A stretch of 55,547 nt of DNA from Spirochaetaceae bacterium (lineage in GTDB: Bacteria; Spirochaetota; Spirochaetia; Treponematales; Rectinemataceae), in contig JAOABY010000009.1 of the NCBI GenBank assembly GCA_026418115.1, positions 1 through 55,547 on the forward strand, written 5' to 3'. Below the pieces are notes generated by a model. The model was given only the letters and a program-made list of their open reading frames with translations. It had not been told where the DNA came from and made no database searches. Positions within the stretch are counted from its first letter, which is position 1; the number at the start of each line of letters is the position of its first letter. The translations under genes were made by a program, and so were the position numbers. Below are positions 12,714-22,211 of the stretch, one piece after another.

Positions 12714-12876
12714 GCGCTCCGAATCGCGCTGGCCGCCCAGCGGCCAATGGCCTACAGACTGCATGGCTTGCAGCCGTGCTGATCCATGGCTGCGCGATCG
12801 AGGCCTGTTCCCGCACCGCGGGATGGCCGAGGGTTGTGCAGGAAACGGCACAGCCTCCCGTACTTGGAAAGGAGAA
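12714..12876 (+). ncRNA. Moco/Tuco-type riboswitch candidate
   Basis: This ~160-base leader is densely paired. CTCC (12717-12720) can pair with GGAG (12871-12874), which is part of the tupA ribosome site AAAGGAG, so the closing stem would hide it. ATCGCGC (12723-12729) pairs with GCGCGAT (12792-12798) and encloses three hairpins: GGCCGC-CCA-GCGGCC, CTGCA/TGCAG, and GCCGTG/CATGGC. Then follow TCCCGC-ACC-GCGGGA inside GGCC/GGCC, and GGTTGTGC/GCACAGCC with a GGAAAC-containing loop. Position before tungstate uptake and cofactor genes, size and the CTCC...AAAGGAGA frame fit the Moco RNA family, whose reduced variants are thought to sense the tungsten cofactor. Class assignment from memory of the consensus; not checked with a covariance model. 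Confidence 0.65.
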
Positions 12877-12881
12877 CCTGT

Positions 12882-13727
12882 GTGGTGCCAAAGTCACGTA
12901 CGTTTCTGCTACTCATGGTGAGCCTGCTGGTGGTAGCGGGCAAGGTTCACAGCGAGGATGCCTCCTCTGCGTTCAAGTCCCGATCATCTGGCTCGCTGAG
13001 GATTGCGACCACTACCAGTGTGGAAAACTCAGGTCTGCTGAATGTCCTGCTCCCTGCATTTTCCCGACGCTACGGGCTTGCAACCAGCGTCATCGCTGTA
13101 GGATCAGGAGCAGCGCTCGCCATTGCCGAGCGAGGCGACTGTGATCTGGTCATATCGCATGCGCCAGACCTCGAAGCTCAGTTCATGGCCAAGGGATTGG
13201 GTGAACTGCATGTTCCATTCATGACTGGCGATTTCCTGCTGCTTGGCCCCCGCAATGACCCTGCAGGCGCAGCCCATGCCGACACATGTGTCGACGCATT
13301 CCGTGCCATAGCTGCATCGAAAGCACTCTTCATATCGAGGGGTGATCGATCGGGTACGCATCAGAAAGAGCTGGAAATATGGGCGAACATCAAGGGGCTG
13401 GTGCGCGGGCCGTGGTATCGGGAAGCAGGGCAGGGAATGGCAGAAGTCCTCACCATGGCAGAGCAGCTTGGGGCATATACGCTCAGCGATCGCGCTACCT
13501 GGCTTGCCATGCGCACACGGCTGCCGCATCTGCAGGTACTCCTGCAGGGCGATGCGATGCTTCGCACTATCTATAGCGTCATTATCCCCAGGAGCGCACA
13601 TTTGTCAGGCCGCAATGCCGATGGTGCAGCGAAGCTGGCTTCGTTTCTGACCGGCAGTGAGGGAGCATCACTCATTGCAGGTTTTCTGATTGAGGGCGAA
13701 CCATGCTTTTTCCCGATCGCGCATTGA
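12882..13727 (+). CDS. tupA: Tungstate ABC transporter substrate-binding protein
   Basis: About 281 residues from a GTG at 12882 (another GTG follows at 12885), 7 bases after AAAGGAG; longer readings upstream run through the folded leader and were rejected. A signal peptide (FLLLMVSLLVVAGKVHS) precedes LRIATTTSVENSGLLNVLLPAF, AVGSGAALAIAERGDCDLVISHAP and the TGDFLLLGPRNDPAG segment, which are the hallmarks of TupA rather than ModA. It should bind tungstate (possibly molybdate) in the periplasm and pass it to TupB. The first gene of an eight-gene operon with overlapping frames. Confidence 0.9.
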   Translation: MVPKSRTFLLLMVSLLVVAGKVHSEDASSAFKSRSSGSLRIATTTSVENSGLLNVLLPAFSRRYGLATSVIAVGSGAALAIAERGDCDLVISHAPDLEAQFMAKGLGELHVPFMTGDFLLLGPRNDPAGAAHADTCVDAFRAIAASKALFISRGDRSGTHQKELEIWANIKGLVRGPWYREAGQGMAEVLTMAEQLGAYTLSDRATWLAMRTRLPHLQVLLQGDAMLRTIYSVIIPRSAHLSGRNADGAAKLASFLTGSEGASLIAGFLIEGEPCFFPIAH

Positions 13728-19302: not shown

Positions 19303-19914
19303 TCAGCGATTGTTTCCACCCTGATTGCCCTGGCCACCTTGCTGCCTGGTCTGATTCCCATTGCCGGCTGCCTGGCCTGCATCGTTGTTCTGACCGGTCC
19401 GGGTCTGATTCTGATTCTGATCGCCCTGCCCCTGTCTCTGCTGTGCGTTTTCATTCTGGCCCTGATGTTCTGCTACCATGGTGCGCAGTTGTTCCTGCTG
19501 TCTGGTGCGGATCTGTTGCTGCAGCGTCTGGCGAAGCGCATCCTGTGTGCCAAGGCCCTGCCAGTCAAACTTCAGCGCATGGAATGCTTCGGAGCCCGGG
19601 GCTATTTCGAGGATTGCAGCAAGCACTCCCCACCCATGGCCTTGCGCATCGGCTGCAAGAGGAATAGCCTCTTCAAGTGGGGTTTCCGTTACCTTGGCAA
19701 TTTCAAGAGCCAGCCAGATCTCTCCAGGGGTGTAACCCTGTTCATAAAGGGAAGTGAGCAGCGCAACATCCACATTGAATGCGCTGGCCAGCTTCTGTAA
19801 TGATGCCGGGATTCCATCAGCGGTATGGACTTGCTGCTGGGAATAGACAGGAATGCTCCCCAGAGCAAAAATGAGAACAAGACTCATGACGACAAGACGA
19901 CTTCGTGCAACCAT
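19303..19914 (-). CDS. Secreted protein with Q/N/G-rich low-complexity tail
   Basis: 203 residues. MVARSRLVVMSLVLIFALGSIPVYSQ is a signal peptide. Residues ~30-130 form a soluble, mostly helical domain (VDVALLTSLYEQGYTPGEIWLALEIAKVTETPLEEAI) with an acidic/aromatic end (EAFHALKFDWQGLG). From ~130 on the chain is Gln/Arg then almost only Gln, Asn, Gly, Thr, Arg. No family recognised. The start at 19914 has GGAGG at the right distance and mirrors the start of the ECF sigma gene across a shared inverted repeat, which suggests co-regulation by that sigma factor. Low-complexity tail resembles that of the other secreted protein at 21345. Confidence 0.8.
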   Translation of the reverse strand: MVARSRLVVMSLVLIFALGSIPVYSQQQVHTADGIPASLQKLASAFNVDVALLTSLYEQGYTPGEIWLALEIAKVTETPLEEAIPLAADAQGHGWGVLAAILEIAPGSEAFHALKFDWQGLGTQDALRQTLQQQIRTRQQEQLRTMVAEHQGQNENAQQRQGQGDQNQNQTRTGQNNDAGQAAGNGNQTRQQGGQGNQGGNNR

Positions 19915-19985
19915 TGTGCAACCTCCTGCGTATATATGGTGTGTATCACACGGATATATACGCAGCAGAGAGCAACATGGTTGCA
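19906..19985. repeat. 80-bp inverted repeat containing both divergent start codons
   Basis: TGCAACCAT (19906-19914) mirrors ATGGTTGCA (19977-19985), and TGCGTATATAT (19927-19937) mirrors ATATATACGCA (19954-19964), all about the same centre. The start-to-arm distance is 13 bases on both sides; the intervening 12 bases match at about half the positions. A smaller palindrome GTGTG-TAT-CACAC sits at the centre, offset by half a base. This is both promoters and both ribosome-site regions facing each other. Confidence 0.75.
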
Positions 19986-20633
19986 TCCAGGCAGAAAGCC
20001 GGCGATCCGGAAGGCACTGCTTCCAGGCAGAGTTGGAGAGGTATGGTGTCCTCCATTGGTGAACTTGAAGAAAAGGAAGCAGTCAGACTCGTACAGGCCG
20101 GCACCAGGAATGCCTTTCGCGTGCTGGTGGAGAAATATGCTCCTTCTGTAATTGCTTTCTGCAGGTATCGGCTGAATTCACGAGAGGAAGCCCTCGATGC
20201 TGCGCAGGAAATCTTTGCCAAGGCATATATGGGCATCAATTCGTTTGATACCGCTGCAGATTTTGGTGCGTGGCTCTTTGGCATCACGCTCAATCACATT
20301 CGCAGTCTGATCCGGCGCAGGAGTTCTGAATTAAGGAAGCTGCATGCCGCAGCCCTTGAGGAATTCTCGAGGCCTGCTGCCGATCCTGCCGGAGATGCTG
20401 AAGATCGCCTTGCGGGAAGTGCACTGAGAGATGCTATGGCAGCGCTGCCAGAATCATTGAGTGTTCCAGTCGAGTTGTATTATTTTGCCGAGCTGCCTGT
20501 GGCACAGATTGCCAATCTGCTCGGCATAGGTGAAGAAGCGGTGAAATCCCGACTGTTCCGTGCGCGCAAGATGCTGAAACGCTCGCTCGCATCTTTCGAG
20601 TCGGGACGTCCCGAAGGAGAAAAGTCGATATGA
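19977..20633 (+). CDS. ECF-type RNA polymerase sigma factor
   Basis: About 218 residues. Region 2 is clear at ~45-110 (AFRVLVEKYAPSVIAFCRYRL, EEALDAAQEIFAKAYMGINSFD, GAWLFGITLNHIRSLIRRR), then a ~45-residue linker, then region 4 (LPESLSVPVELYYFAELPVAQIANLLGIGEEAVKSRLFRARKMLKR). It lacks region 3, as ECF factors do. It directs RNA polymerase to a small regulon in response to release from the anti-sigma encoded next (ATGA overlap). The start at 19977 is preferred because it sits symmetrically to the divergent gene in the inverted repeat; an internal ATG at 20045 is too close to its GGAGAGG. Confidence 0.92.
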   Translation: MVASRQKAGDPEGTASRQSWRGMVSSIGELEEKEAVRLVQAGTRNAFRVLVEKYAPSVIAFCRYRLNSREEALDAAQEIFAKAYMGINSFDTAADFGAWLFGITLNHIRSLIRRRSSELRKLHAAALEEFSRPAADPAGDAEDRLAGSALRDAMAALPESLSVPVELYYFAELPVAQIANLLGIGEEAVKSRLFRARKMLKRSLASFESGRPEGEKSI

Positions 20634-21334
20634 TGCGATGTTCAGAAGTTGCATCATGGTTTGATGCATGGGCTGAGACGGATCCCACCGGAATGAGGGA
20701 AGACAGATCCGATCAGACTCGAGCCCGATGGGTCGAGGTAGAGGAGCACCTGGCGCAGTGTTCTGCCTGTAGAGATCGATTCGGAACGCTGGCTGTACTC
20801 GCGCGCAGGGATTATGGCGAGTCTCGAGGGCCGGCTCCTCTTGAAGATGTAGACGCATTCATGGAGGCCGTGTTCTCCAGGGTGGATGCAGCACGAAATG
20901 CAGACAGCGAGGACGTGTCTGTGGCAGCAAGCCAGCCGGCTGCAGCAAGAGCACTTCGGGATGACAACAAGTTCAGAAAGAGCAGGCTGCTGAAGCTGGC
21001 CTACGCAGCAGTGATACTTGCTGCAGGAATAGTGATGGGCATTCTGATCGGACGAAATGGCAGTACGCAGGACACAATACTGGTTACCTTTCTGCTCGAG
21101 GCGCCCGATGCTGCGAGTGTCTCGCTCGCCGGCACCTTCAACGGGTGGGACACCACGGCATACCAGTTTACAAAAGTCTCCGCGAACACGTGGAGCTTGA
21201 AAATTCCACTCCGGAAAGGCCGGGAATATCTGTACAACTTTGTAATTGATGGAGAAAGGTGGATCCCTGATCCGGCTTCTCCTCTCAAGGTCGATGATGG
21301 GTTCGGAGGCGAGAGCAGCCTCCTGAGGCTGTGA
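20630..21334 (+). CDS. Anti-sigma factor with extracytoplasmic AMPK/CBM48-like domain
   Basis: 234 residues. An N-terminal zinc-binding anti-sigma domain carries HLAQCSACRDRF (His-x3-Cys-x2-Cys, ~residues 40-47). One membrane helix (LAYAAVILAAGIVMGILIG, ~122-141) follows. Residues ~148-234 form an early-set glycan-binding type module: VTFLLEAPDAASVSLAGTFN, the NGW motif, LYNFVIDGERWIPDP and DDGFGG, close in design to the module at the start of the barrel protein at 2718. The domain would lie outside the membrane and may sense alpha-glucan or a protein partner and release the sigma factor. Overlaps sigma by ATGA and is followed closely by the secreted protein. Sensing is inference; the residues that bind glucan are only partly kept (one conserved Trp seen). 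Confidence 0.85.
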   Translation: MMRCSEVASWFDAWAETDPTGMREDRSDQTRARWVEVEEHLAQCSACRDRFGTLAVLARRDYGESRGPAPLEDVDAFMEAVFSRVDAARNADSEDVSVAASQPAAARALRDDNKFRKSRLLKLAYAAVILAAGIVMGILIGRNGSTQDTILVTFLLEAPDAASVSLAGTFNGWDTTAYQFTKVSANTWSLKIPLRKGREYLYNFVIDGERWIPDPASPLKVDDGFGGESSLLRL

Positions 21335-21344
21335 GGAGGCTGAA

Positions 21345-22211
21345 ATGGCAGACTGTTGTATGAAAGTTCGTTGCCGAAGAGCCCTCCTGATAGCAGCTCT
21401 CAGCATGCTGGTGCTTTCCCCTTTGAGTCTGGGTGCGCAGGAAGTGGAAGCCTGGTTCTCTGATGGCAATCATCTGGCAGCTTATGGCAGCATACGGCAG
21501 GCCTCGCTCGAACTGGCCAGGCAGCTCGAAATGCAGGGGCTGACGGATCGTCTGCTGATGCTGAGGCTGGAAGAAGCCTACAGAAAGCGCATTGCCCCTT
21601 CGAAAGCCATCGAGAGTCTGAAAAAGGATGTAGCCCGCTTTGGCACGATTGCAGGAATGCTGGCATCCAGAAATCTCAAGGCGCAGACTCCAGCCGAGGT
21701 TTCTGAACAGATCCTGCGCCTGGATATTTTCCTGCGTGCCGGTCTTTCCGAACAGGAATGTGCCTTCATTCTGGATATTGCGCTCGGATGGGATGGTGAC
21801 CGTTCGAGCCGCAAGTCGCAGCTGCTGTTCAACAGGATTACTGCCGCCATGGCAGCAGTGCTGCCGCTGCGATCAAAGGGCCTGATCGATGCCGAAACCA
21901 CGGTTCTGCTTGCAGGAGCGCTCATCATGAGCGATCGTCCCGATACTGAATTCTCCGCACAGATTGCGCCGCTGGAAAAGGCGGCTGGGCAGAATCTGCA
22001 GCGAGATGCGGCGAATCTTGCAAAGAAATTGTCTGCCACAAGGCAGAACGTGCTCTTTGAACAGGTCGCCAGGTTTGGCAGCCTCATGCGCGAGCAGCAG
22101 AATCCAGATGGACAATTGCAGAGGCCTTCTACAGAAGGCGGCGGCAGCCAGGGAGCAGGTGAGGGCCAGGGTCAGGGCAAGGGCAATCAGGGCAAAGGCC
22201 CATCACGTTGA
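21345..22211 (+). CDS. Secreted protein with Gly/Gln-rich tail, ECF operon
   Basis: 288 residues. A signal peptide (RRALLIAALSMLVLSPLSLGAQ) is followed by a wholly helical part (~35-255) with repeating Leu/Ala/Arg heptads (LASRNLKAQTPAEVSEQILRLDIFLRAGLSEQECAFILDIALGW), and a tail of Gly, Gln, Lys, Glu (~262-288). No family recognised. GAGGAGG sits 5 bases before the ATG, 10 bases after the anti-sigma stop, so it belongs to the same operon. Its tail resembles that of the divergent gene at 19303, so both may be targets or accessory parts of the same system. Its stop overlaps the convergent Rieske gene by 9 bases. Confidence 0.82.
   Translation: MADCCMKVRCRRALLIAALSMLVLSPLSLGAQEVEAWFSDGNHLAAYGSIRQASLELARQLEMQGLTDRLLMLRLEEAYRKRIAPSKAIESLKKDVARFGTIAGMLASRNLKAQTPAEVSEQILRLDIFLRAGLSEQECAFILDIALGWDGDRSSRKSQLLFNRITAAMAAVLPLRSKGLIDAETTVLLAGALIMSDRPDTEFSAQIAPLEKAAGQNLQRDAANLAKKLSATRQNVLFEQVARFGSLMREQQNPDGQLQRPSTEGGGSQGAGEGQGQGKGNQGKGPSR

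Follow-up and report, generated by a model that had tools for sequence, protein, structure and literature searches.

ECF sigma factor systems are commonly recognised by an AAC motif at -35, a CGT motif at -10 and autoregulation (PMC8103513). The stretch analysed here is 55,547 nt of a contig from a Spirochaetaceae bacterium of the Rectinema type (the window), in which an imperfect inverted repeat lies between a gene for a secreted protein and an operon headed by the gene for an ECF (stress-type) sigma factor. The locus resembles the autoregulated ECF sigma/anti-sigma operons (PMC8103513) in having a factor made up of the sigma2 and sigma4 regions only, a -35 box of AAC type with a -10 box of CGT type, and a putative promoter of this type before its own operon; the gene that overlaps the sigma gene encodes a putative membrane anti-sigma factor with a zinc-finger-like motif. 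What sets it apart from those operons is that its predicted autoregulatory promoter and the target promoter face each other and overlap, forming an inverted repeat, and that its relatives seem to transcribe the sigma gene from a leaderless promoter of the housekeeping type.

Two other systems are comparable in part. In the alphaproteobacterial general stress response, phyR and nepR-ecfG form two divergent units around an ECF gene, both on promoters of that factor (PMC8103513); the likeness covers the arrangement and not the promoter geometry, and the window has no PhyR or NepR. The bidirectional promoters described in E. coli by Warman, Grainger and colleagues (PMC12825309) use one common symmetric -10 element, with start points mostly 18 bp apart. 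Like the window site they have a pseudo-symmetric DNA sequence, and divergent transcription in which one binding event blocks the other is predicted for the window as well; competition for polymerase is possible in both. The window site, in contrast, has two complete -35/-10 sets that face each other; its -10 boxes lie 20 bp apart and its transcripts are expected to overlap. Because these -10 boxes (19930-19935 and 19956-19961) are separate instead of common to both directions, we do not class it with the bidirectional promoters of this kind. A limited literature search, which covered Treponema pallidum TP0092 as well as facing ECF promoters, found no close precedent.

We interpret the 80-bp repeat as two overlapping, face-to-face promoters of the same ECF sigma factor, one predicted to drive the divergent target gene and the other the sigma/anti-sigma operon, and give this reading a probability of about 0.76. 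The element is best read as a variant of the familiar ECF control circuit and not as a new type of element. Features of the locus are listed in Table 1.

Table 1. Positions of the genes, putative promoter boxes and repeat at the locus, numbered from the first nucleotide of the window.
Feature	Position	Strand	Description or basis
Divergent target gene, secreted 203-aa protein	19303..19914	-	Signal peptide, helical domain, Q/N/G-rich tail
Imperfect 80-bp inverted repeat	19906..19985	both	Two putative facing promoters; inner GTGTG-TAT-CACAC
-35 box GCAACC, putative plus (sigma-operon) ECF promoter	19907..19912	+	GGTTGC of the target gene's Met-Val-Ala codons on the minus strand
Extra GCAACC	19918..19923	+	Complement of GGTTGC overlapping the target gene's Shine-Dalgarno
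Shine-Dalgarno AGGAGG of divergent gene	19922..19927	-	Sequence
-10 box GTATAT, putative plus ECF promoter	19930..19935	+	Motif match; start point predicted near 19941
-10 box GTATAT, minus (target-gene) ECF promoter	19956..19961	-	Motif and relatives; start point predicted near 19950
-35 box GCAACC, minus ECF promoter	19979..19984	-	GGTTGC of ATGGTTGCA on the plus strand; same box in 11/11 relatives with a divergent gene
ECF sigma factor	20043..20633	+	Likelier start ATG 20043, with GGAGAGG at 20035-20041; other candidates ATG 19977 and GTG 19941
Putative anti-sigma factor	20630..21334	+	H-x3-C-x2-C zinc-finger-like N-terminus, one hydrophobic (transmembrane-like) segment, CBM48; ATGA overlap with sigma gene
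Third operon gene, secreted 288-aa protein	21345..22211	+	G/Q-rich tail; no Pfam family

Geometry of the inverted repeat

The symmetry of the 80-bp element is real. Two pairs of arms had been reported from the sequence alone as sharing one centre, and their coordinates hold: the outer arms are TGCAACCAT (19906-19914) and ATGGTTGCA (19977-19985), the inner arms are TGCGTATATAT (19927-19937) and ATATATACGCA (19954-19964), and the centre is at 19945.5. The element had been called a mirror image, for which inverted repeat is the correct term; the distance from arm to ATG is equal on either side as claimed, with 12 bases lying between them. With half-arms of 40 bases, 27 of the 40 pairs around 19945/19946 match, the top value in the 55.5-kb window to which these palindrome statistics refer. 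When the local 240 bp were shuffled 2000 times with dinucleotides preserved, this value was never attained. Genome-wide comparison was made by pattern searches, which found exactly two copies of TGCGTATATAT in the 2.17-Mb genome, both in the repeat.

Putative promoter boxes in the arms

GCAACC-N17-GTATAT is present on both strands, with a spacer of exactly 17 nt each time. The arms are best read as ECF promoter elements: each strand carries one set, the two sets face each other, and in both of them the outer arm holds the -35 box while the -10 box falls in the inner arm. Compared with the ECF hallmarks, the boxes read CAACC at -35 and CGTAT at -10. Complementing the -35 box of the opposite promoter (GCAACCAT) gives ATGGTTGC, and the start-codon letters fall within the repeat because each -35 box overlies the start of the opposite gene. 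The extra GCAACC on the plus strand is probably not the -35 box in use, as its spacing suits only GTAT at 19 or GTGT at 17. By its sequence, the locus has what defines an autoregulated ECF system, a putative sigma-specific promoter before the sigma operon of the same type as that of the target, and the plus-strand promoter would bring the sigma gene under its own control.

It had been proposed to look for the motif before other genes so as to define the sigma regulon; the genome search did not reveal a wider one. GCAACC-N16..18-GTAT occurs at 13 sites, two of them the window pair, where about 12 were expected from an estimate of chance, and the 10 sites examined among the 11 other exact ones lie inside open frames of 630-3027 nt between stops. 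With TGCGTATATAT confined to this locus and the examined motif sites in long open frames at a near-chance count, a wider regulon was rejected.

Genes on either side and the sigma start codon

The product of the first plus-strand gene matches PF04542 and PF08281 above cut-off and TIGR02937 at 2.1e-26. It has Sigma-70 regions 2 and 4 only, with no match to region 1 or 3, as is characteristic of ECF (group IV) sigma factors. To the sigma factors found within the same genus it is only about 45-47% identical. The anti-sigma-like protein matches zf-HC2 at 17.3 bits, below the cut-off of 22.2, and its match to an NCBIfam antisigma model is weak. The operon runs from sigma factor to putative CBM48-containing anti-sigma factor to secreted protein and ends at 22211 (+). 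Relatives share this gene order; the one among them that bears a name is Rectinema subterraneum (Spirochaetota, Treponematales, Rectinemataceae).

The divergent 203-aa protein carries conserved IWLALE and GHGWG..LA motifs in its helical domain, and homologues are encoded divergently from the sigma gene in nine relatives. It has no Pfam or NCBIfam match, and structure modelling gave a poor result that contains nothing but helices (mean pLDDT 56). Both secreted proteins that flank the sigma/anti-sigma pair (19303-19914 and 21345-22211) have G/Q/N-rich C-terminal tails and belong to no known family.

Both start codons had been placed inside the repeat, with both proteins beginning Met-Val-Ala. 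On the minus side this is secure, since ATG 19914 is backed by its AGGAGG Shine-Dalgarno, the signal peptide and homologues. On the plus side ATG 19977 has no good Shine-Dalgarno, and the coding score of the first 22 codons is ambiguous from 19977 (-0.02) versus 0.42 from 20043, which also gives an N-terminal length as in most relatives. The plus-side Met-Val-Ala may therefore not be translated as a start, and the sigma factor probably begins at 20043, outside the repeat. The third candidate, GTG 19941, would be nearly leaderless relative to the predicted plus start point.

Conservation in relatives

GCAACC-N17-GTAT precedes the divergent gene in all 11 relatives that have one, always with a spacer of 17 nt and, where measured, 19-61 nt upstream of the start codon, and for this reason we regard the minus-strand promoter as well supported. 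Nine of these relatives (L026, L028, L030-L033, L035, L037 and L039) encode homologues of the window protein and two (L005 and L029) an unrelated lipoprotein-like protein. A twelfth, L038, which is truncated by the end of its contig, has the same motif with one mismatch. In L005 and L029 the position of the promoter is kept while the gene beneath it has been replaced by the lipoprotein-like gene. One relative, at L084 (genome G005, contig C72, 3859-3887), has another exact site, GCAACC-N17-GTATCC, whose last base lies about 5 nt upstream of the anti-sigma start codon, which suggests an extra internal ECF promoter there.

The facing arrangement is rare. In a search of 390 genomes of the order, three (G000, G015 and G017) contained the double facing motif, each of them at this locus, and a reversed-pattern control gave no matches. 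Among the relatives, consensus boxes on both strands are confined to G015 and G017, which hardly differ from one another at this locus and so amount to a single case in addition to the window; no other genomes give the plus promoter close comparative support. In these two the plus-strand GCAACC complements the Shine-Dalgarno region, so that their plus promoter could be coincidental. The consensus plus promoter is absent from 9 of the 11 relatives that carry the minus one. Absence of the symmetry from related genomes had been named as evidence against the sequence-only reading; most relatives do lack the symmetry, but they keep the minus promoter.

Relatives also differ from the window in what precedes the sigma gene. 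In 17 of 18 of them the sigma start codon is preceded by a TAnnnT hexamer whose last base lies 6-9 nt upstream, which looks like a family-wide pattern of leaderless transcription from a housekeeping-type -10. No comparable TAnnnT box precedes any of the candidate sigma starts in the window, and the only sigma-70-like match nearby is weak (9 of 12) and lies within the divergent gene. Because the leaderless box is missing, the sigma gene of the window needs another promoter. It seems to have exchanged the leaderless promoter for an ECF promoter, and such a swap would therefore place it under autoregulation.

Origin of the two arms

Outside the boxes, the arms of the window match at 16 of 29 positions where 7.3 are expected (P = 5e-4), and in a gapped alignment with the boxes fixed none of 5000 random arm pairs was as good. 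In G015 and G017 the arms outside the boxes match at 4-5 of 28 positions, as expected by chance. Likeness that extends beyond the boxes is a sign of common descent of the window's two arms, and the plus promoter is probably derived from the minus promoter by inverted copying. Template switching between imperfect inverted repeats can yield related arms (PMC8604942). It is conceivable, though less likely than not, that the autoregulatory promoter originated in one step, by inverted copying of the target promoter through template switching at a quasi-palindrome. This step would have converted constitutive leaderless expression of the sigma gene into positive feedback and, as the two promoters could never be jointly occupied, would have set target and regulator in competition from the outset. 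Of the earlier proposal of an inverted duplication of a sigma-dependent promoter plus start region, the promoter part is the best supported, by the conserved boxes and the likeness of the arms, and the start region does not belong to the repeated unit.

Predicted circuit and alternative explanations

From the motif, its spacing and orientation, the conservation of the minus promoter and the absence of the leaderless box, all obtained by sequence and comparison, we infer the following circuit. The membrane anti-sigma factor would release the sigma factor, and the holoenzyme could then bind either promoter. The minus promoter, which the relatives strongly support as ancestral, would transcribe the divergent secreted-protein gene; the plus promoter, apparently a replacement for the leaderless housekeeping-type promoter of other family members, would transcribe the sigma/anti-sigma operon in positive autoregulation. 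As the predicted footprints overlap, holoenzyme would not occupy both promoters at once, and an overlap of about 10 nt is predicted between the 5' ends of the two transcripts. Equal co-expression had been offered as a reason for the symmetry; promoters that face each other and overlap would be expected instead to compete for RNA polymerase.

The most serious alternative, though an improbable one, is that only the minus-strand ECF promoter is real, the plus-strand match and the symmetry being by-products (a coincidence, or a mutational palindrome with no rightward transcription) and the sigma gene being transcribed from elsewhere. Most relatives do conserve the minus promoter alone, and G015 and G017, with a plus GCAACC that is a Shine-Dalgarno complement and arms alike in the boxes only, fit this explanation. 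However, an exact GCAACC-N17-GTATAT is very improbable by chance in such a short region, and a transcript from elsewhere would have to do without the leaderless -10 of the relatives and start from no better nearby sigma-70-like match than the weak one in the divergent gene.

Readings that take the repeat for something other than promoters are less likely still. A divergent intergenic position and strong two-fold symmetry are what would be expected of a palindromic operator, at which a dimeric transcription factor represses or activates both genes, but we consider this quite unlikely: in the relatives the conserved element is bipartite and asymmetric, its gap is constant at 17 nt and it always points towards one gene, the palindrome is not kept, and the sigma/anti-sigma pair are the only adjacent regulator genes. 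With neither a conserved dyad nor a gene for such a regulator alongside, the operator was rejected. Slightly less probable again is chance or an unrelated hairpin (a terminator, the end of a mobile element or a structured RNA). The 80 bases do fold well as single-stranded DNA (z = -6.5), but the shuffles never reproduced the symmetry, the element is unique in the genome and the conserved motif accounts for the arms. No terminator-like site and no Rfam match were found at the repeat, and a terminator or structured RNA was rejected on these grounds.

If two facing ECF promoters are the correct reading, the locus offers a predicted consensus (GCAACC-N17-GTAT) and a main target for an uncharacterised ECF sigma factor family in the Rectinemataceae. 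It also appears to be a compact example of the rewiring of a regulatory loop, with a leaderless promoter in the relatives versus an inverted copy of the target promoter here, and it shows how an inverted repeat that is easily mistaken for an operator may have a simple explanation.

Elsewhere in the window, a Moco (molybdenum/tungsten cofactor) riboswitch at 12722-12891 (+) lies upstream of molybdate/tungstate-transport-like and molybdopterin genes (about 13.7-18.5 kb).
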